In this document: positions 25,745-35,891 of the stretch, piece after piece
Layout: every line of letters starts with the position of its first letter
Numbering within the stretch: the stretch's first letter is position 1
NCBI GenBank assembly: GCA_003553795.1
Contig: PWFH01000222.1
Coordinates: 1 to 35,891 of the forward strand
From: Egibacter sp.
GTDB taxonomy: Bacteria; Actinomycetota; Nitriliruptoria; Euzebyales; Egibacteraceae
Length of the DNA stretch: 35,891 bases
Direction of reading: 5' to 3'
Notes under the pieces: model-generated
Databases searched by the model: none
The model's input: the letters and a program-made list of their open reading frames with translations, nothing else
Told to the model about the DNA's origin: nothing
Made by a program: the position numbers and the translations under genes

Positions 25745-27337
25745 ATGATGAGCGAGGAGGAGCCCCAGGGCCTCATGGGCGGCGCGCTGCTGCCCGACGT
25801 CGACGACGACAAGCTCGAGTCGATGATGATCGCCGAGCTCGACCGGGCGCTCGACGGGCCGCCGCGCGAGGAGGTGCCCGCCGGCACGATCCTGTTGTGG
25901 GAGGGCCAGGTCGTCGACCGGATCGCCGTCCTGCTCGACGGCCGCGTCGAGCTCACGCGCTCGACCGACGAGGGCCACGTCGTCGTCCACGGCGAGTCGA
26001 CCGGGCGGATCATCGGCCTCGCCTCGCTCACGAGGGCCCGCAAGGCCTCCTTCACCGTGCGCGCGGCGACCAACCTCACGCTCCTGCCGATCGCCCTGCC
26101 GCAGCTCGACCGCGCCCTGCGCGCCGACCCCGAGCTGTCCCAGCACTTCGTCAACGTCCTCATCCGCTCGCTGGCGCGCCGCCACCGCCGCGCCGTCGAG
26201 CTCCAGGTCGAGAACACCCAGCTCGCGCGCTCCCTCGAGGAGGAACGCGACCAGCTCCGTGACGCCCTCGCCCAGCTCGAGGACGCCCAGGCGCAGGTCG
26301 TGCAGTCCGCGCGCATGGCCACGCTCGGGGAGATGGCCGCCGGGCTCGCCCACGAGCTCAACAACCCCGTGGCCGCGCTGACCCGGGCTGCGGAGCACAT
26401 CGCCGAGGACGCCACCGAGCTCGTCACCGACTGCGCGCAGAGCACCTGGCGGCAGACGGTGCTCGAGCGCGCGATCCGCGCGCCCGCACGCTCGACCGCC
26501 GAGCACCGCCGGCGCCGCCGCGAGCTCGCCGCCGAGGTCGGGGACCGCCGGCTCGCCGAGCGGCTCGTCGCCGCCGGGGTCGAGGAGCCCGCCGACGCCG
26601 AGCGGCTGCTCGCCGAGGCCGGCCTCACCGACCGCGAGGCGCTGCTCGACGAGCTCGAGCGGCTGCGCCGTCTCGGCGACGCGGTGCGCAACCTCCGCGG
26701 CGCCGCCGGGCGGGTCTCCGAACTCGTCTCGAGCCTGCGCTCCTACGCCAGGGCGGGCTCGGACCTCCAGCCCGGCATCGACGTGCGCGAGGGCCTCGAG
26801 GACACGCTGCGCCTGCTCAACCACCGGCTCGGCGCGGTCGACGTCGTCCGCGCCTACGACGACGTGCCGACGATCACCGCCCAGCCCGGCGAGCTCAGCC
26901 AGGCCTGGACGAACATCATCGCCAACGCGCTCGACGCGATGGAGGACGAGGGCCGCCTCATCGTCGAGGTGGGCGCGCAGGATGAGGCCGTGCGCGTGCG
27001 CGTCGCCGACTCCGGCCCCGGCGTCGACGACGTCGACCTCGACCGGGCCTTCGAGCCGCACTTCACGACGAAGGACGGTCGGGTGGCCTACGGTCTCGGC
27101 CTCGGCCTGTCGATCACCCGCCGCATCGTCGAGCGTCACGGCGGCGAGATCGCCCTGCAGCCCGCCGAGGAGGGCGCGGGCGCGGAGGTCGTCGTCACCC
27201 TGCCGGTGCGCCAGCCCGACGGCGCAGGGTCGCCCTCCGCCGAGGAGGCGTCCGAGCCCGACGAGGCGGCGTCACCCGATCCCAGCACCGGGCCCGCGAG
27301 CGAGGGGCCCGCACCCAGCCAGGAGGAGCCCTCATGA
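25745..27337 (+). CDS. Soluble histidine kinase with a cNMP-binding-fold sensor and an H-box insertion
   Basis: A 530-residue kinase without TM helices. Residues about 35-135 form a cyclic-nucleotide-binding-like beta-roll, but the phosphate-binding cassette (GLASLTRARKASFTVRA) lacks the Glu and Arg of CAP, so true cNMP binding is doubtful. A coiled coil (about 150-190) leads to the H-box MAAGLAHELNNPVAAL with phospho-acceptor His203. About 90 extra, Arg/Glu-rich residues then separate it from the second dimerisation helix (RVSELVSSLRSYAR). The ATPase domain has the N-box (TNIIANALDAM), G1 (VADSGPGV), F-box (FEPHFTTK) and G2 (GLGLGLSI). The last 55 residues are Pro/Glu/Ser-rich and probably disordered. 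It overlaps the receiver gene by 4 bp. Confidence 0.92.
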   Translation: MMSEEEPQGLMGGALLPDVDDDKLESMMIAELDRALDGPPREEVPAGTILLWEGQVVDRIAVLLDGRVELTRSTDEGHVVVHGESTGRIIGLASLTRARKASFTVRAATNLTLLPIALPQLDRALRADPELSQHFVNVLIRSLARRHRRAVELQVENTQLARSLEEERDQLRDALAQLEDAQAQVVQSARMATLGEMAAGLAHELNNPVAALTRAAEHIAEDATELVTDCAQSTWRQTVLERAIRAPARSTAEHRRRRRELAAEVGDRRLAERLVAAGVEEPADAERLLAEAGLTDREALLDELERLRRLGDAVRNLRGAAGRVSELVSSLRSYARAGSDLQPGIDVREGLEDTLRLLNHRLGAVDVVRAYDDVPTITAQPGELSQAWTNIIANALDAMEDEGRLIVEVGAQDEAVRVRVADSGPGVDDVDLDRAFEPHFTTKDGRVAYGLGLGLSITRRIVERHGGEIALQPAEEGAGAEVVVTLPVRQPDGAGSPSAEEASEPDEAASPDPSTGPASEGPAPSQEEPS

Positions 27338-27831
27338 CCACGCCACGCCTCGTCGTCCTCTGCGTCGAGGACGAGCCCGACGTGCGCGATGCCATCGTCC
27401 GTGACCTCGCGCCCTTCGAGCCGGCCGTGGTCACCGAGACCGCCGAGAGCGCCGACGACGCGCGCGAGGCCATCGCCGAGATCACCGAGGGCCGCGACCG
27501 CCTCGGGCTCGTCCTCGCCGACCACCTCCTGCCGGGCACGACCGGCGTGGACTTCCTCGTCGAGCTACACGAGGGCGAGGCGACCGCGCGCGCGAAGAAG
27601 GTCCTGCTCACCGGCCAGGCCGGGCTCGACGACACCGTCAAGGCCGTCAACCGCGCCGACCTCGACCGCTACGTCGCCAAGCCGTGGGACCCCGAGGAGC
27701 TGCGCGCGGTCGTGCGCGACCAGCTGACCGAGTTCGCCTGCGAGCACGTCGACGACGTCCTGCCCTACCTCACCGTCCTCGACAGCGCCCGGCTGCTCGA
27801 GGTGCACGGCACCCGCGCCGCCGACCGCTGA
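27334..27831 (+). CDS. Stand-alone response-regulator receiver protein
   Basis: A 165-residue protein whose first 125 residues form a complete receiver domain: acidic pair Glu12-Asp13 (CVEDEPD), phospho-acceptor Asp63 (VLADHLLPG), Thr93 (LLTGQAG) and Lys116 (YVAKPWD). No DNA-binding or enzymatic output domain follows; the last 40 residues are helical with no recognisable motif. The start overlaps the kinase stop as ATGA, making the pair a dedicated two-component system. A lone receiver must act by protein contact, for example on the neighbouring transporter, or as a phosphate shuttle. It converges on the LacI gene with 15 bp between stops. Confidence 0.92.
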   Translation: MTTPRLVVLCVEDEPDVRDAIVRDLAPFEPAVVTETAESADDAREAIAEITEGRDRLGLVLADHLLPGTTGVDFLVELHEGEATARAKKVLLTGQAGLDDTVKAVNRADLDRYVAKPWDPEELRAVVRDQLTEFACEHVDDVLPYLTVLDSARLLEVHGTRAADR

Positions 27832-27850
27832 GCCGCGGGGCGCCGCTCAG
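27828..27850. terminator. Hairpin spanning convergent stop codons (receiver / LacI)
   Basis: CTGAGC (27828-27833) and GCTCAG (27845-27850) form a 6-bp stem around an 11-nt GC-rich loop. The stem contains the TGA of both convergent genes, like the palindrome at 1913-1932. It is a possible weak bidirectional terminator. Confidence 0.35.
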
Positions 27851-28887
27851 GGGGCGGACGCCGCGGGCTGACGCAGCGGGCCGGTCGAGCCTCGCGCGAT
27901 GAGCTCGGCGCGGAAGAGGTGCTCCCCGCGGTGCGGGGCGCCCTCCCCGGCGAGCTCGGCGAGCAGCGCGTCGGCCGCGGCCGTGCCGAGCGCGGCGATG
28001 GGTTGGCGCATGCTCGTCAGCGGCGGGTCGACGAGGGCCATGAGCGGGGTGTCGTCGAAGCCGACGACCGACACGTCGCCGGGGACGTCGAGGCCCCGTG
28101 CACGGACCGCGCGGACCGCTCCCAGGGCGATGAAGTCGCTGCCGCACACCACGCCGGTGACGCCCTGCTCGAGCAGCGGGCCCATCGCCGCCTGCCCGCC
28201 CTCGACGGTGTAGGAGGTCTCGACGACGAGGCCCTCATGGGCCGCGGCCGCCGCCGCGCCGAGACGGTCCTCGAGCCCGCGGTGGAAGCCGATGACCTTG
28301 CGGTGCGAGGGCTGGTAGCGCGAGGGGCCGACGATGAGCGCGATGCGCTCGTGCCCGAGCGCGGCGAGGTGGCCGACGGCGCGCTCGGTCGCGGTCGCGT
28401 CGTCGGTGGAGAGGAACGGGGCGTCGACCTCGGGCATGAACCCGTTGACGAAGACCGCCGGCACGCCGTGGCGGACGAGCAGGGCGTAGGCGCCGCGCTC
28501 ACCGCGGGCGTCGGCATGCTGGCCCGAGACGAAGACGAAGCCGCCGACCCCGCGGGCCAGGAGGGCCTCGACGTAGGACTGCTCGCTCGTGCCATCGAGC
28601 GTGGAGGTCGCGATGACGGTGACGTGGCCGGCGCGCGCGAGGCGCGCCTCGACGGCCTTGGCCACGAGCGGGAAGGCCGGGTTGTCGAGCTCGGGGATGA
28701 TCACGCCCAGCAGGCCGCGCTCGGGCAGCCGCGCCGCGCCGACGCCCTCGTAGCCGGCCTCCCGCAGGGCGAGCAGGACCGCGGCGCGGGTCTGCTCCCC
28801 CACCCCGGGCTTGCCGTTGACGACGCGGCTGACGGTGGCCTCGCTCACACCCACCGCCAGGGCGACGTCCCGCAACGTCGTTCGCAT
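27847..28887 (-). CDS. LacI-family repressor of the maltodextrin operon
   Basis: A 346-residue regulator with the LacI layout. The N-terminal HTH and hinge helix are at residues 1-55 (LRDVALAVGVSEATVSRVVN then GKPGVGEQTRAAVLLAL), followed by a periplasmic-binding-protein-like effector domain (GLLGVIIPELDNPAFPLV, and the late VVGFDDTPLMALVDPPLTSMRQP). Divergent position beside malEFG makes it the likely local repressor, released by a maltose-type sugar, like MalR of Streptomyces. There is no Shine-Dalgarno sequence; TACGCT on the minus strand (28894-28899) lies 6 nt before the ATG, so its message is probably leaderless. That element is close to the operators, so autoregulation is plausible. 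Confidence 0.93.
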   Translation of the reverse strand: MRTTLRDVALAVGVSEATVSRVVNGKPGVGEQTRAAVLLALREAGYEGVGAARLPERGLLGVIIPELDNPAFPLVAKAVEARLARAGHVTVIATSTLDGTSEQSYVEALLARGVGGFVFVSGQHADARGERGAYALLVRHGVPAVFVNGFMPEVDAPFLSTDDATATERAVGHLAALGHERIALIVGPSRYQPSHRKVIGFHRGLEDRLGAAAAAAHEGLVVETSYTVEGGQAAMGPLLEQGVTGVVCGSDFIALGAVRAVRARGLDVPGDVSVVGFDDTPLMALVDPPLTSMRQPIAALGTAAADALLAELAGEGAPHRGEHLFRAELIARGSTGPLRQPAASAP

Positions 28888-28893
28888 GGCGGG

Positions 28894-28967
28894 AGCGTAC
28901 CTGAGTGAACCGGCGAAAGAAAGTCTTTGCGTCGCCCTTGCGCAACCTTGCAGGACCTTGTTACCTT
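28894..28967. promoter_or_regulatory. Divergent lacI / mal control region with phased operators
   Basis: CCTTG occurs three times exactly 10 bp apart (28936, 28946, 28956), the first inside the palindrome TTGCGCAA (28938-28945) with a CG centre as in LacI-family operators. The second reads CTTGCAG, the repeat that I recall from Streptomyces MalR targets. TTGCGC (28938-28943) and TACCTT (28962-28967), spaced 18 bp, could be the mal promoter, so a bound repressor would cover it. An AAAGA/TCTTT dyad is at 28916-28928. The lacI -10 is at 28894-28899. The remainder, to 29074, is mal leader. Confidence 0.55.
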
Positions 28968-29074
28968 CCCGTTACTGAACGACCTGGCATATGGGGTCAA
29001 CGGCACGATCCGCCAGCGGCCCGCTGCCACAGGGGCGCCCAACGAGGGCCGTCCACGCAACCGAAGGAGTCGCT

Positions 29075-30388
29075 GTGAAGCCCACCATGAGACTGCTTGC
29101 GCTCATGCTCGCCGCGCTCCTCGTCCTCGCCGCCTGCGCGGAGGACGAGGAGGCCGTCGACGAGCCCGAGGACGACGACGTCGACGTCGAGGAGCCCGAC
29201 GAGGAGCCCGACGAGGAGGAGCCGGACGAGGAGGAGCCCGAGGAGGAGCCCGTCACCCGGGCCGACGCCGACCTCGTGATCTGGGCCGACGACACGCGCA
29301 CCCCCGCCCTCGAGCCGTTCGCCGAGGAGTTCGGCGCGGACAACGACGTCGAGGTCGTCGTCCAGGAGCTGCCCTTCGACGAGCTCGACGACCAGCTCAT
29401 CACCGCCGGCCCGGCCGGTGAGGGCCCCGACGTCATCATCGGCGCCCACGACTGGACCGGCCGCCTCGTCGAGAACGGGGTCATCGCGCCGATCGACCTC
29501 GGCGACGTGGCCGACGAGCTCGCCGACGTCGCCGTCGAGGCCTTCAGCTTCGAGGGCCAGGTCTACGGCCTGCCCTACGCCACCGAGAACGTCGCGCTCA
29601 TCCGCAACGCCGAGATGGTGCCCGAGGCTCCCGAGACCTGGGACGAGCTCATCGACGTCGGCGAGGGACTCGTCGACGACGGCGAGGCCGAGGAGGCCAT
29701 CGTGTGGCCGACCGAGCCGGCCGACCCCTACCACAACTACCCCGTCATCACCGCCTACGGCGGCTACGTCTTCGGCCAGGACGAGGACGGCTCCTACGAC
29801 CCCACCGACCTCGGCATCGACAGCGAGGGCTCGATCGAGGCGGCCCAGGCCTACCGTGACTGGGTCGAGGAGGGCATCCTCAACGTCGACGTCACCTACG
29901 ACCTCATGATCGAGCTCTTCGCGGGCGGCGACGCGCCGTTCACGATCGGCGGGCCATGGACCCTGCCGGACTTCGACGAGGCCGGCGTCGAGTACGAGGT
30001 CACCCCGATCCCCGAGATCGATGGCGGCACCCCGCAGCCGTTCGTCGGCGTGCAGGGCTTCATGCTCTCGGCCTTCGCCGAGAACGAGCTGCTCGCGCAG
30101 ACCTTCCTCACCGACTACATGGCCACCGAGGACGCCCAGCTCGCCCTCTACGACGCCGACCCCCGCCCGCCGGCGATGCTCTCGGCCTTCGACGAGGTCG
30201 CCGAGGACCCCGACATCGAGGGCTTCGGCGAGAGCGGCCTCGACGGTCAGCCGATGCCGAACATCCCCGAGATGGACTCGGTCTGGGAGTCCTGGACCGA
30301 CGCCTACGAGCTCGTCTGGGAGGACGCCGAGGACCCCGAGACGGCCTTCACCCAGGCCGCGGACCAGATCCGCGGGCTCATCGAGTAG
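29075..30388 (+). CDS. malE: Maltodextrin-type ABC importer, solute-binding lipoprotein
   Basis: A 437-residue family 1 solute-binding protein, anchored outside the membrane as a lipoprotein. The signal peptide is residues 1-20 with lipobox LAAC at Cys21. An extremely acidic tether (about residues 22-62, almost only Asp, Glu, Pro and Val) follows. The mature domain has DVIIGAHDWTGRLVENGVIAPID, GLPYATENVALIRN, AYGGYVFGQ and FTIGGPWTLPDF, matching maltose/maltodextrin-binding proteins. The GTG at 29075-29077 is chosen because GAAGGAG lies 5 nt upstream and the signal peptide begins there. It is first gene of malEFG-GH13 under the LacI repressor. Confidence 0.93.
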   Translation: MKPTMRLLALMLAALLVLAACAEDEEAVDEPEDDDVDVEEPDEEPDEEEPDEEEPEEEPVTRADADLVIWADDTRTPALEPFAEEFGADNDVEVVVQELPFDELDDQLITAGPAGEGPDVIIGAHDWTGRLVENGVIAPIDLGDVADELADVAVEAFSFEGQVYGLPYATENVALIRNAEMVPEAPETWDELIDVGEGLVDDGEAEEAIVWPTEPADPYHNYPVITAYGGYVFGQDEDGSYDPTDLGIDSEGSIEAAQAYRDWVEEGILNVDVTYDLMIELFAGGDAPFTIGGPWTLPDFDEAGVEYEVTPIPEIDGGTPQPFVGVQGFMLSAFAENELLAQTFLTDYMATEDAQLALYDADPRPPAMLSAFDEVAEDPDIEGFGESGLDGQPMPNIPEMDSVWESWTDAYELVWEDAEDPETAFTQAADQIRGLIE

Positions 30389-30421
30389 GACACCGAACGA
30401 CACATGGAGAGGGGCTCTGGC

Positions 30422-32059
30422 ATGGCCGGAACGGTCGACGACACCGAGGCCTCCGGCCAGCCGGGGCCCCCTCCGGCACTCGGTCCCCCGAAGCCGCCAG
30501 GCGTCCTCGCGCGCTTCGGGGAGACGACCTCGGGGGTGATCGCCAAGCTCCTCGCGCTCGCGGCGATGAATGCCGCGGCGCTGTGGATGATCCTGCGGAT
30601 GGTGACCCTCGAGGCGCCGTGGTGGGCACTGACGCTCACGGTCCTCGCGACGCTCGTGCTGAACTGGGTCTACCTCGGCAAGCGCAAGCTCCCCTTGAAG
30701 TACCTCGTGCCGGGGACGATCTTCCTCATCGTCTTCCAGCTCTACCCCTTCGTCTACACCTTCTACATCGGCTTCACGAACTACGGCCAGGGCCAGGTGC
30801 TCACCCAGGAGCAGGCCAGCGACGTCATCGAGCGGCGCTCGGTGCAGGCCATGCCCGACGCCCCGCGCTTCGGCGTCACCCCGATGGCCGACGACGGCAC
30901 CCCGGCGATGCTGCTCGAAGCGGCTGACGGCAGCCTCGCCCTCGGCACCGCGGAGGGCTTCCTGCCGCTCGAGGAGGCCGACGAGGTCGTCCGCGAGGCC
31001 GACGAGGTCGTCGCCGTCGAGGGCTTCGAACGGCTCTCCCTCGGCGAGGCGCAGGACCGCATCGACGAGTTCGCCGAGCTCGAGGTGCCGCTGCCCGACG
31101 AGGGCGTCATCGAGCTCACGAGCCTGACCCAGGCGACCCAGCTCGAGCAGCGCTTCGTCTACGACGAGGAGGCCGACGCCCTCGTCGACCAGCTCGACGG
31201 GACGGTCTACCCCGCCGATCCCGAGGCGGGGGCCTACCGCGACCCCGACACCGGGCAGCGACTGGCCGGCGCCCCCGGCTGGCGCGTCGTCGTCGGCTGG
31301 GACAACTTCACCCGCGCCTTCACCGACGAGCGGATCCGCGACCCCTTCCTCGGCGTGCTCGTCTGGACCTACGTCTTCGCGCTGGGATCGACCGCGGGGA
31401 CCTTCGCCCTCGGGCTGCTGCTCGCGCTCGTCCTCAACCATCCGGGGGTCAAGGGCCGGCGCCTGTGGCGCGCGCTCATCATCATCCCCTACGCGCTGCC
31501 GACGTTCCTCACCGCCCTCATCTGGCGGGGGATGATGAACCGCAGCTTCGGGGTCCTCAACGACCTCATCGGCTACCCGATCCCCTGGCTCGTCGACCCG
31601 ACGATGGCGAAGGTCAGCGTCCTGCTCGTCAACCTCTGGTTCGGCTTCCCCTACATGTTCATCATCATCACCGGGGCGCTGCAGTCGATCCCCGGCGACC
31701 TCTACGAGGCCGCGCAGGTCGACGGCGCGTCCGGCTGGGGCCGCTTCCGCCGCATCACCCTGCCGCTGCTGCTCGTGTCGACCGCGCCGGTGCTGCTCGC
31801 GACCTTCGCCTTCAACTTCAACAACTTCAACGTCATCTACCTCGTCACCGGGGGCAACCCGCCGGTGTCAGGGGCGGCGAGCCCGGTGGGGCACTCCGAC
31901 ATCCTCATCAGCTACACCTACCGCATCGCCTTCGAGACCGGCGGGGGGCAGGACTACGGCCTCGGGGCGGTCGTGGCGATCGTGACCTTCCTCATGGTGG
32001 CGATCATCTCGGCGATCACCTTCCGCTACATCCGCCCGCTCGAGGAGGTCCACCGATGA
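30422..32059 (+). CDS. malF: Maltodextrin ABC importer permease MalF
   Basis: A 545-residue inner-membrane permease. A Pro-rich cytosolic start precedes three TM helices (to about residue 120), then a large extracytoplasmic loop of about 175 acidic residues in the MalF P2 position, then five further TM helices. The ATPase-docking EAA loop is present as EAAQVDGASGWGRFRRITLP. The long P2-like loop is a MalF hallmark and contacts the binding protein. I prefer the ATG at 30422 because GAGAGG precedes it with about 9 nt spacing; the ATG at 30404 lacks a ribosome-binding site. The stop overlaps malG by 4 bp. Confidence 0.93.
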   Translation: MAGTVDDTEASGQPGPPPALGPPKPPGVLARFGETTSGVIAKLLALAAMNAAALWMILRMVTLEAPWWALTLTVLATLVLNWVYLGKRKLPLKYLVPGTIFLIVFQLYPFVYTFYIGFTNYGQGQVLTQEQASDVIERRSVQAMPDAPRFGVTPMADDGTPAMLLEAADGSLALGTAEGFLPLEEADEVVREADEVVAVEGFERLSLGEAQDRIDEFAELEVPLPDEGVIELTSLTQATQLEQRFVYDEEADALVDQLDGTVYPADPEAGAYRDPDTGQRLAGAPGWRVVVGWDNFTRAFTDERIRDPFLGVLVWTYVFALGSTAGTFALGLLLALVLNHPGVKGRRLWRALIIIPYALPTFLTALIWRGMMNRSFGVLNDLIGYPIPWLVDPTMAKVSVLLVNLWFGFPYMFIIITGALQSIPGDLYEAAQVDGASGWGRFRRITLPLLLVSTAPVLLATFAFNFNNFNVIYLVTGGNPPVSGAASPVGHSDILISYTYRIAFETGGGQDYGLGAVVAIVTFLMVAIISAITFRYIRPLEEVHR

Positions 32060-32979
32060 GCGCCGCGCCCGACACCGACACCACCCGTCGCGGGCCGGCG
32101 CCGCCGCGGCGCAAGGACCCCGGCACGGGCTTTCGCTGGTCGCGCTGGTTCGCCGAGGTCGGGTGGCGCTACCTCGTGCTCGCGGCCGCGCTCGCCTTCG
32201 CGCTCTTCCCCGTCGTCTGGGTGGTCTCGGCGGCCTTCAACCCCACCGGCTCGATCGCCGCCCAGCAGCTCATCCCCGACGAGCCGAGCGTCGTGAACTT
32301 CGAGGTGCTCTTCGCCCGGCCCTTCTGGCGCTGGTTCGCCAACTCGATGATCGTCGCGGGCGTCAGCGCCGCGGGCACGGTCCTGCTCACCGCCCTGTCG
32401 GCCTACGTCTTCAGCCGCATGCGCTTCAGCGGCCGGCGCACGTCGCTGCTGGGCCTGCTGCTGCTGCAGATGCTCCCGCAGTTCCTCGCGATCATCGCGA
32501 TCTTCCTCATGATGACCTCGATCGGGCGCTACTTCCCCGAGTTCGGCCTCAACACCCTCGCGGGGCTCATCGCGATCTACCTCGGCGGCGCGCTCGGGCT
32601 CAACACCTGGCTCATGAAGGGCTTCTTCGACACCGTGCCCGCCGACCTCGACGAGTCCGCCGCGGTCGACGGGGCGAGCCACGCGCAGATCTTCTGGCGG
32701 ATCATCATGCCGCTGGTCACGCCGATCCTCGCGGTCATCATGCTCCTGTCGTTCATCGTCGCGCTCAACGACTTCATCGTGCAGTCGGTGCTGCTGCGCA
32801 GCGAGGAGCAGTACACCCTCGCCGTCGGGCTCTACCTCTTCGTCGCCGAGGACTACGGCGCCCGCTGGGGGCCCTTCGCCGCCGGGGCCCTGCTCGCCGG
32901 CGTGCCGGTGGCGATCCTCTTCCTCTTCCTCCAGCGCTACATCACCTCCGGGCTCACCCTCGGCGCGGTGAAGGGGTGA
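32056..32979 (+). CDS. malG: Maltodextrin ABC importer permease MalG
   Basis: A 307-residue permease with six TM helices after a 30-residue basic, Pro-rich N-terminus. The EAA loop is ESAAVDGASHAQIFWRIIMP (first residues Glu-Ser-Ala-Ala instead of Glu-Ala-Ala), and the protein ends YITSGLTLGAVKG, the conserved MalG C-terminus that reaches into the ATPase dimer. The ATG at 32056 overlaps the malF stop; open frame further upstream is shadow of malF. No malK gene follows. In actinobacteria a shared ATPase (MsiK) often serves such importers, so the ATPase is probably encoded elsewhere. Confidence 0.94.
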   Translation: MSAAPDTDTTRRGPAPPRRKDPGTGFRWSRWFAEVGWRYLVLAAALAFALFPVVWVVSAAFNPTGSIAAQQLIPDEPSVVNFEVLFARPFWRWFANSMIVAGVSAAGTVLLTALSAYVFSRMRFSGRRTSLLGLLLLQMLPQFLAIIAIFLMMTSIGRYFPEFGLNTLAGLIAIYLGGALGLNTWLMKGFFDTVPADLDESAAVDGASHAQIFWRIIMPLVTPILAVIMLLSFIVALNDFIVQSVLLRSEEQYTLAVGLYLFVAEDYGARWGPFAAGALLAGVPVAILFLFLQRYITSGLTLGAVKG

Positions 32980-34790
32980 GGCCGACCACGCCGCTGGCTG
33001 CGCCCCACCACGACGGCTCCCCGCGCTACGCCGCCACCGAGGCCCCGGCCCTCGGCGAGCACGTCGAGGTGAGGGTGCGCGTGCCCGACGCCGCCGGGGT
33101 CGACGCGGTCACGACGCGGTGGGTCGCCGACGGCGAGCCCGAGTACGCCGCCGCCGAGGTCGCCGCCCGCGAGCCCGGGGTGACGTGGTGGCGCGCGCGT
33201 GTGGAGGTCGCCAACCCCCTCACCCCCTACCGCTTCCTCCTCCAGGGGCCAGGGGGCTACCGCTGGCTCACCGCCGCCGGCGTCGTCGACTTCGACCCTG
33301 CCGACGCGACCGACTTCCGCCTCAGCGCCCACGAGCCGCCACCGACGTGGGCCGGCGACGCGGTGTGCTACCAGGTCTTCCCCGACCGCTTCGCGCGCGC
33401 CGGGGAAGCGCCGCTGCCGGACTGGGCGCTGCCGGCGGACTGGGAGGACCCGGTGCGCCGCGGCGGGCCCGAGGCGATGCGCCAGCTCTATGGCGGAGAC
33501 CTCGACGGCGTCACCGCCCGCCTCGACCACGTCGCCGACCTCGGCGCCGACGTCGTCTACCTCAACCCGGTCTTCCCGGCCCCGTCGAACCACCGCTACA
33601 ACGCTGCGAGCTTCGACGAGGTCGACCCCGCCCTTGGCGGCGACCCCGCCCTCGCCCGCCTGCTCGACGCCGCCGCAGCCAGGGGCGTCCGCGTGCTCGG
33701 CGACCTCACCCCCAACCACTGCGGCTCGACGCACCCGTGGTTCCTCACCGCCCAGGCCGACGCCGGGAGCGTCGAGGCCGGCTTCTTCACCTTCGAGCGC
33801 CACCCCGACCGCTACGCGACCTGGCTCGGCGTCCCGACGCTGCCCAAGCTCGACCACCGCGACCCCGAGCTGCGACGGCGCCTCTTCGACCCCGACGACG
33901 GCATCGTCGCGCGCTGGGTCCGCGCGGGCCTCTCCGGTTGGCGCGTCGACGTGGCGAACATGACCGGGCGGCAGGGCGCCACCGACCTCACCCGCGAGGT
34001 CGCGCGGGACATGCGGGCGGCCCTGCGCGCCGCCGACCCCGAGGCGCTGCTCATCGCCGAGCACGCCTTCGACGCCTCCGCCGACCTCGCCGGCGACGGC
34101 TGGCACGGGACGATGGACTACGCGGGCTTCACCCGGCCGGTGTGGTCGTGGCTCGCCACCACCGGGGAGGTCGACTACCTCGGCTCGCCACTGCCCCTGC
34201 CGCGCTTCGACGGCGGCCAGCTCGTCGCGTCGCTCACCGCCCTGCGCGCGGCCATGCCCTGGCGCAGCGCCCGGCACAACCTCACGCTCCTCGGCTCCCA
34301 CGACACCTCCCGCTTCCGCACCGTCGTCGGCGGCGACCGCGCACGGCAGCGCGTCGGGCTCGGCCTGCTCATGACCCTGCCGGGTGTGCCCTCGGTCTTC
34401 GCCGGCGACGAGATCGGCCTGACCGGACGCGACAACGAGGAGGCGCGCCAGCCGATGCCGTGGGACCGGCGGCGCTGGGACCACGACACCCTCGCGACCT
34501 ACCGCGAGCTCATCGGCCTGCGCCGCGCCCACGTCGCGCTGCGCCGCGGCGGGCTGCGCTGGGCCCACGTCGGCGCCGACGTCGTCGTCTTCCTCCGCGA
34601 GCACCCCGCCGAGCGCCTGCTCGTCGCCATCGCCCGCAGCGCCCACGAGCCCGTCGACCTCGATGCGCGCGGCGTCGGCGCCGAGCGCGCCAGCGCCCTC
34701 CTCGACGGCGAGGACCTCGTGGCCGCCGATGGTCGGCTGCGCCTCGGCGGGGACGGCCCGCGCGTCGCGCTGTGGCGCCTCGAGGCCTGA
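32976..34790 (+). CDS. Cytoplasmic GH13 neopullulanase/maltodextrin glucosidase-like enzyme
   Basis: A 604-residue GH13 enzyme without signal peptide. The first 110 or so residues form a beta-sandwich like CBM34 (VEVRVRVPDAAG to YRWLTAAGVVDFDP), then the barrel starts at AVCYQVFPDRFARAG. That domain order is typical of GH13_20/GH13_21 (cyclomaltodextrinase, neopullulanase, MalZ). Catalytic Asp325 (GWRVDVANM), Glu362 (LLIAEHAFD) and Asp443 (LLGSHDTSR) are present. It would cut imported maltodextrins to glucose and maltose. The GTG at 32976-32978 overlaps the malG stop as GTGA; no ATG lies near the domain start, so translational coupling is likely. Confidence 0.92.
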   Translation: MRPTTPLAAPHHDGSPRYAATEAPALGEHVEVRVRVPDAAGVDAVTTRWVADGEPEYAAAEVAAREPGVTWWRARVEVANPLTPYRFLLQGPGGYRWLTAAGVVDFDPADATDFRLSAHEPPPTWAGDAVCYQVFPDRFARAGEAPLPDWALPADWEDPVRRGGPEAMRQLYGGDLDGVTARLDHVADLGADVVYLNPVFPAPSNHRYNAASFDEVDPALGGDPALARLLDAAAARGVRVLGDLTPNHCGSTHPWFLTAQADAGSVEAGFFTFERHPDRYATWLGVPTLPKLDHRDPELRRRLFDPDDGIVARWVRAGLSGWRVDVANMTGRQGATDLTREVARDMRAALRAADPEALLIAEHAFDASADLAGDGWHGTMDYAGFTRPVWSWLATTGEVDYLGSPLPLPRFDGGQLVASLTALRAAMPWRSARHNLTLLGSHDTSRFRTVVGGDRARQRVGLGLLMTLPGVPSVFAGDEIGLTGRDNEEARQPMPWDRRRWDHDTLATYRELIGLRRAHVALRRGGLRWAHVGADVVVFLREHPAERLLVAIARSAHEPVDLDARGVGAERASALLDGEDLVAADGRLRLGGDGPRVALWRLEA

Positions 34791-34913: not shown

Positions 34914-35891
34914 ATGCCGCCCAGCGCCGAGTCCCCCCAGACCCTCGACCACGTCGGCTCGAGCGACTACGCGCGCCGCTTCGGCCGCATGCTCCGCCGC
35001 GCGCGGCACACCCAGGGCCGCAGCCGTCGTCAGCTCGCGGCGACCGCCGGCTCGACGCTGTCGGCCCGCGACCTCGGCACCTACGAGCGCGGAGGGGTCC
35101 GGCTGGGCGTCGCCGACGTCGAGCGCCTCACCGACCTCTACGGCCTCGACCTCGCCGACGTCGAGCGCGGCCGCCAGGTCGTCGTCATCGACCTCGACGC
35201 CGGGCAGCTCAACGTCGCCGGCGAGGTCGTCGCGCTGCCCGCCGACGCCGACCCGGCCGAGGCGCTCCAGCGCTACGTCGGCGTCGTCAACCGCCTGCGG
35301 CAACAGCCGATGCGCACACCCGCGACGCTGCGCACCGACGACGCCCGGGCCCTCGCCGAGGCCTTCGAGCTCGACAGCGAGGAGCTCATCGAGCTGCTCA
35401 CCGAGGCACTCGGGGAGTACGCCACGCAGCGCCGCCGCCTCCACGCGCTGCGCGGCGGCGGCGGCAGCCTCGCCGTCGTCGTCGTGCTCGGCGTCGCGGG
35501 CGCGACGCTCGGCGAACGGGGCCATGCCGACCTCGACGACGCGCTCGCCCCCGCCGCGGTGAGCGCCGAGCCCGAGGGCCTCGACGCCGAGGACGCGACC
35601 GCGCTCCCCGAGCCGGAGCCGCTCGCCGACCCCGCCACCCGCTTCGGCCCCGACCTCGACCCAGCCGTCGAGACGCGCGAGCCGACGGCGGAGCCCTCCA
35701 CCGAGCCCTCCCCGCAAGCCCAGCCGGCACCAGAGCCCTCACCCGAGCCCTCCCCGCAGGCCCAGCCGGCACCAGAGCCCTCACCCGAGCCCTCGCCCTC
35801 CCCGTCGCCCGAGGCGACCGACGAGGCCTTCGTCGACGAGACGAACATCGACGCCCCCGACGGCCCCGTCGTCATCGAGGCCGAGGAGGCC
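34914..35891 (+). CDS. Membrane-tethered BldD-like regulator (3' end cut by window)
   Basis: At least 326 residues, open to the right edge. Residues 19-85 match the BldD helix-turn-helix (DYARRFGRMLRRAR, LGTYERGGVRLGVADVERL). Residues 88-170 match the BldD ligand domain (VVVIDLDAG, LQRYVGVVNRLR, LRTDDARALAEAF). From memory, BldD binds c-di-GMP through RGD-x8-RQDD; here the aligned positions read Arg129-Gln-Gln, eight residues, then Arg140-Thr-Asp-Asp, so the first half is degenerate. A Gly stretch and a short hydrophobic segment (about 185-200, LAVVVVLGVAGATLG) follow, then a long Pro/Glu/Ser-rich tail with two 14-residue repeats. Cytosolic HTH, one TM and an outer disordered tail resemble RodZ in topology. 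GAGAGG precedes the ATG. The gap 34791-34913 holds nothing else clear. Confidence 0.8.
   Translation, partial: MPPSAESPQTLDHVGSSDYARRFGRMLRRARHTQGRSRRQLAATAGSTLSARDLGTYERGGVRLGVADVERLTDLYGLDLADVERGRQVVVIDLDAGQLNVAGEVVALPADADPAEALQRYVGVVNRLRQQPMRTPATLRTDDARALAEAFELDSEELIELLTEALGEYATQRRRLHALRGGGGSLAVVVVLGVAGATLGERGHADLDDALAPAAVSAEPEGLDAEDATALPEPEPLADPATRFGPDLDPAVETREPTAEPSTEPSPQAQPAPEPSPEPSPQAQPAPEPSPEPSPSPSPEATDEAFVDETNIDAPDGPVVIEAEEA
35703..35786 (+). repeat. Two 42-bp tandem repeats within the BldD-like gene
   Basis: 35703-35744 and 35745-35786 are identical except for one synonymous base (CAA/CAG). Each encodes EPSPQAQPAPEPSP. A partial third unit follows. The near-identity suggests recent duplication, so the length may vary between strains. 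Confidence 0.85.

Follow-up and report, generated by a model that had tools for sequence, protein, structure and literature searches.

The window analyzed here, a stretch of 35,891 nucleotides that makes up the whole of contig C211 of an Egibacter sp. genome, ends in a gene for a membrane-type paralogue of BldD (mBldD), which belongs to a separate and apparently undescribed branch of BldD-like proteins. BldD is the c-di-GMP-controlled regulator of Streptomyces development and the textbook regulator glued together by tetrameric c-di-GMP; as its reference entries we take the family model NF050110, the domain models PF13560 and PF21179, and the PDB structures 2ewt, 4ob4, 4oaz, and 5khd. The homology of mBldD, its clade, its motif pattern, its reversed conservation, and its linkage to glgE are evident from sequence comparison. 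As our main reading, to which we give about an even chance, we propose that mBldD is a single-pass BldD paralogue with a guanine-dinucleotide half-site that would act at the membrane, either on expression of the GlgE pathway or as a scaffold.

A previous, sequence-only reading of the window had predicted a BldD-type architecture for this gene, i.e., a helix-turn-helix (HTH), a C-terminal ligand domain (CTD), a hydrophobic segment, and a Pro/Glu-rich tail. This layout was borne out, the tail being acidic as well, and the presence of a membrane-type BldD-like gene in the window is confirmed (Table 1). The open reading frame starts with the ATG at 34914 and meets no stop codon up to position 35891, where both window and contig stop, so that the gene is truncated. 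A chance origin is disfavored, as a full-length orthologue is 73% identical and others are 47, 40, 31, and 29% identical, which is more than chance.

Table 1. Features of the mBldD gene and its upstream neighbors in the window (G001 and G010 are two other genomes with the gene).
Feature	Position	Strand	Basis or remark
Histidine kinase with N-terminal cyclic-nucleotide-binding domain	25745..27337	+	Orthologue upstream of mBldD in G010
Receiver-only response regulator	27334..27831	+	Immediate upstream neighbor of mBldD in G001 and G010
LacI-type regulator, maltose-type ABC transporter, and amylase block	27847..34790		
mBldD gene (membrane-type BldD paralogue)	34914..35891	+	326 codons present; 3' end outside window
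XRE/BldD-type HTH, residues 16-86	34959..35171	+	PF13560, 37.4 bits (Pfam cut-off 27); VIA-align; pLDDT 95-98
BldD_C-like ligand/dimerization domain, residues 88-165	35175..35408	+	PF21179, 21.8 bits, E 1.7e-4, just under cut-off 27; hhalign; pLDDT mostly 85-96
Motif 1, RQQ: R129 = BldD R114; Q131 replaces D116	35298..35306	+	Alignment
Motif 2, RTDD: R140 = BldD R125; D143 = BldD D128	35331..35342	+	Alignment
Probable single transmembrane (TM) segment GGGSLAVVVVLGVAGATLG, residues 182-200	35457..35513	+	RRR before, acidic stretch after
Acidic Pro/Glu/Ala-rich tail, net charge -29 over 126 residues	35514..35891	+	Predicted outside membrane
73-bp repeat coding FVDETNIDAPDGPVVIEAEEA	35819..35891	+	Matches end of contig C134
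Window share of recurring tail motifs	35829..35891		

Homology to BldD had been proposed for both domains, and the profile matches to the HTH and the CTD agree with this. Among them is the match to the NCBIfam BldD model NF050110, which covered residues 16-164 with 39.6 bits, far under the equivalog cut-off of 250; the genome's own soluble BldD, with 208.6 bits, was likewise under that cut-off. The closest PDB match of the HTH was the BldD DNA-binding domain 2ewt, ranked first by VIA-align with a Z of 10.7. When profiles of the membrane-type and soluble BldD CTDs were aligned with hhalign, the probability was 97.5 (E 5e-12), compared to E values of 0.02 to 0.84 for 20 column-shuffled control profiles, and judged by these profiles the CTD of mBldD is a divergent homologue of that of BldD. 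A phmmer search of the PDB with the single mBldD protein matched BldD via the HTH only, and the family profile matched BldD CTD chains at just E 0.2 to 0.7. The structure-search lists (Foldseek and VIA) were filled by the HTH, so the CTD match comes from sequence profiles and not from structures. AlphaFold2 gave a poor model from 9 sequences (pLDDT 65) and good models of both domains from 53 sequences (pLDDT 82.6). A separate soluble BldD, a point raised by the earlier reading, is present in the same genome on contig C16 (79.7 bits), and a soluble BldD also coexists in most carriers of the membrane type.

The last 73 bases of the window recur, as two copies with 97% identity, where contig C134 ends. 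There, the reading frame reaches a TAG after the two repeat copies, and glgE starts approximately 150 bases past it, followed by treS, a maltokinase gene, and glgB. Because the repeat is common to the ends of C211 and C134, the assembly would have broken within it, and in G001, a genome of the same genus, the orthologue is followed by glgE on a single contig in the same order. From this gene order and the shared repeat we infer that C211 joins C134, so that the terminal part of C134 very probably carries the 3' end of mBldD, right before glgE-treS-maltokinase-glgB.

Searches of 66 genomes of the class, and then of 396 genomes of the phylum, yielded 17 proteins with a membrane-type CTD in 16 genomes. 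In a tree made by a quick method and containing several long branches, a single branch (SH-aLRT 100) split these proteins from 56 soluble BldD relatives, and by this tree the membrane types are an old lineage that stands apart from soluble BldD. In 16 of the 17 members, the CTD is directly followed by a strong hydrophobic segment and then by a tail, which is 51 to 852 residues long, while three (L054/L077 in G039, L099 in G094, and L128 in G247) lack the HTH and consist of CTD, TM segment, and tail alone. The member in G051 (L078:350-904, minus strand) is truncated, ends after the hydrophobic stretch, and adjoins a tandem-repeat region. A pattern scan of the genome collection matched two Nitriliruptorales MAGs only (G008 and G010).

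The motif RQQ-x8-RTDD is located at residues 129-143, as had been claimed. It had also been called degenerate, and this holds for the lost D116 equivalent; the motif is otherwise intact, with the equivalents of R114, R125, and D128 invariant in all 73 proteins (17 membrane and 56 soluble types). Across 53 aligned proteins, exactly three columns were invariant: R129, R140, and D143. The RXD-X8-RXXD signature of BldD lacks its D116 in mBldD and in all 17 clade members: position 116 is D in 54 of the 56 soluble types and E in the other two, whereas among the membrane types it is never D and is E in two. The phosphate contact R130 is kept in 2/17 membrane types and N118 in 0/17, which weakens the main reading. 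Of the two c-di-GMP dimers bound by BldD, one is read by motif 2 (R125 and D128) and one by D116, with R114 contacting both, and c-di-GMP binding was abolished when R114 and D116 (motif 1) were swapped together (PMC4151990), so that the loss of D116 also weakens it. The half-site proposal weighs this need for motif 1 against the finding that BldD can nevertheless dimerize with just one c-di-GMP dimer bound (PMC11082216). For the loss of D116 alone in BldD, we found no account of the effect in the open-licence literature. The window's genome encodes 27 GGDEF domains, which makes c-di-GMP signaling plausible.

Conservation was compared as mean pairwise identity for the HTH, the CTD, and the recognition region, giving 0.61, 0.45, and 0.78 for the soluble types, 0.33, 0.35, and 0.36 for the membrane types, and 0.49, 0.61, and 0.51 for the window (glgE) clade, respectively. 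Conservation is reversed: the DNA-binding half is the most conserved in the soluble types, whereas the CTD is at least equal to it in the membrane types. mBldD resembles BldD in its domain order, in having BldD as the best PDB match of its HTH, in its homologous CTD, and in keeping R114, R125, and D128. It differs in the absence of D116, in the added TM segment and tail, in belonging to a separate clade with R130 mostly gone and HTH/CTD conservation reversed, and in having a true soluble BldD alongside it in the genome. The weak conservation of the HTH, together with the three HTH-less members, implies that DNA binding is perhaps not a shared output of the clade, which further weakens the main reading and suggests that DNA reading is not its strongly shared property. 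The earlier proposal that envelope state is coupled to DNA binding thus gains no support, and the earlier interpretation as a whole is supported only in part. Operators may differ from one membrane type to the next, or the HTH may be a protein-binding module like that of RodZ.

With a protein-binding HTH, mBldD would be a RodZ-like scaffold that ties a cytoplasmic partner to the envelope and does not control transcription, the candidate partners being GlgE-pathway enzymes, the cytoskeleton, or the chromosome. An HTH less constrained than the CTD, an unconserved recognition region, and the members without an HTH all fit such a role. A cross between BldD and RodZ had in fact been suggested, and in layout the two are alike, with a cytoplasmic HTH, one (probable) TM segment, and an external C-terminal part; the RodZ HTH 2wus was also among the structural matches (Z 9.2). 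That match was, however, tied with many ordinary XRE domains, and the RodZ family model HTH_25 (PF13413) was absent from the window protein and reached just 14 to 15.6 bits, below the cut-off, in two relatives, while a PF13560-type HTH scored above the Pfam cut-off in 4/4 members of the window's clade. Moreover, mBldD has a BldD-type CTD before the TM segment, and the window's clade has no folded external domain. We therefore regard the scaffold as rather unlikely, although worth keeping in view.

A further alternative is a ToxR/CadC-like transmembrane regulator, in which the ectodomain would be the input and the CTD a mere structural linker with no nucleotide bound. Membrane-anchored one-component or transmembrane transcription regulators are a known and widespread class (PMC10269533, where BldD is not mentioned), to which mBldD belongs by layout. 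The earlier reading knew of no described membrane-tethered BldD, and we likewise found no description, in the open-licence literature, of a BldD-type membrane regulator with a consistent one-residue change in the ligand site. mBldD shares with ToxR and CadC a DNA-binding-type domain, a probable TM segment, and an external part in a single chain; the ectodomains vary (acidic repeats in the window clade, approximately 300 residues in a G001 paralogue, and long tandem repeats in G366), and D116 and some further ligand contacts are lost. However, its HTH is XRE/BldD-type and not ToxR-type, a domain bearing a nucleotide site stands between HTH and membrane, and most tails are short and of low complexity and would make poor sensors. 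A bare linker would also leave unexplained why R114, R125, and D128 are the sole invariant columns across the 53 proteins, HTH-less ones included, and we consider this alternative unlikely.

The second membrane-type BldD of G001 (L076:661-3213, minus strand) has a tail of approximately 660 residues, including a region of balanced composition of approximately 300 residues that looks folded and gave no Pfam or PDB match. In the G366 member (L121:7594-10710, plus strand), an Asp-rich linker with GDQDDT repeats accompanies long near-identical tandem repeats of approximately 121 residues, which appear adhesin-like by eye. Two tail motifs, picked after inspection of the tails, recur outside the window clade: VIE[RA] in 3/12 tails and E[RA]xPDG in 4/12, where shuffling predicts 0.02 and 0.05, respectively. 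Motif-bearing low-complexity tails occur in distant families (L011, L012, L013, L098, L100, L124 in G188, L123 in G324, L128, and L099). A search of the other proteins of the window's genome for the tail motif gave no support for its recurrence there, and the motifs offer no more than a hint that the tails share an external partner.

The TM segment predicted within residues 181-205 coincides with a hydrophobic stretch at 182-200 that shows a charge bias and is conserved in orthologues. Its Kyte-Doolittle (KD) value is 1.78, and KD is 1.56 to 2.46 at the equivalent place in 16/17 clade members; K+R counts summed over the 17 proteins were 65 before the segment and 14 after it. On the Wimley-White octanol scale, the segment was weaker (+1.8), the value being positive, and the segment failing, in the window, G008, and G010. 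Since AlphaFold2 does not build a helix in this short, Gly/Val-rich segment, membrane insertion through a single TM segment is probable and not proven, and these features, together with the octanol failure, weaken the main reading. A soluble protein, in which the stretch would be a buried helix or an oligomerization segment, is compatible with the octanol values and the unstructured model but highly improbable given the hydrophobicity at the same place in 16/17 members, the charge bias, the acidic low-complexity tail beyond, and the fact that soluble relatives stop ≤12 residues past the domain with a maximum KD of ≤1.46.

All four genomes that carry the window's family (G000, G001, G010, and G008) have mBldD immediately before glgE, with G000, the window's genome, counted across the inferred contig join, and the full GlgE pathway set (glgE, treS, maltokinase, and glgB) follows downstream; in this lineage, mBldD thus heads the genes for synthesis of alpha-glucan (glycogen). 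The family includes 13 further genomes with glgE and with the upstream DNA covered, and in these, other genes and no mBldD were found at that place. The gene order in G010 is transporter, kinase, receiver, mBldD, glgE, treS, maltokinase, and glgB; the window has otherwise the same gene set, with the LacI/ABC-transporter/amylase block splitting the receiver from mBldD. In G324, G188, G358, and G333, the membrane-type gene has other neighbors, with a kinase/regulator pair and MoxR/DUF58-like genes (named by eye only) nearby and, in G324 and G188, an adjoining glycosyltransferase. A role at glgE would thus be specific to the window's lineage, and the confinement of the linkage to the window's family narrows the main reading.

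Under the main reading, we infer the ligand, dimerization, target, and tail role of mBldD as follows. The HTH and the BldD-type CTD would lie in the cytoplasm, the chain would cross the membrane once, and the acidic, disordered tail would be exposed outside. The CTD would keep a half-site (equivalents of R114, R125, and D128) with which BldD holds its tetramer in place and recognizes the c-di-GMP dimer of motif 2, and would miss D116, which in BldD reads the remaining dimer. Two CTDs would then be bridged at the membrane, and their HTHs paired, by a guanine dinucleotide, for which one c-di-GMP dimer is the likeliest candidate. For the lineage of the window, the proposal is that the adjacent glgE-treS-maltokinase-glgB alpha-glucan genes would thereby be controlled from the membrane, through DNA binding near glgE or through scaffolding. 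Only tentatively, and leaning somewhat against it, do we extend this to an undescribed actinobacterial family of membrane-anchored BldD paralogues, whose natural half-site would accommodate one c-di-GMP dimer or another guanine dinucleotide and would so link the messenger level to the membrane, here for control of GlgE alpha-glucan synthesis.

What emerges is a sister clade of BldD in which one of four base-reading residues has been universally lost and the other three kept without exception, and in which constraint has moved off the DNA-binding half and onto the ligand half, while the protein most likely became membrane-bound. Such a clade would offer a natural experiment on the evolution of the tetramer site and on whether half of it suffices.
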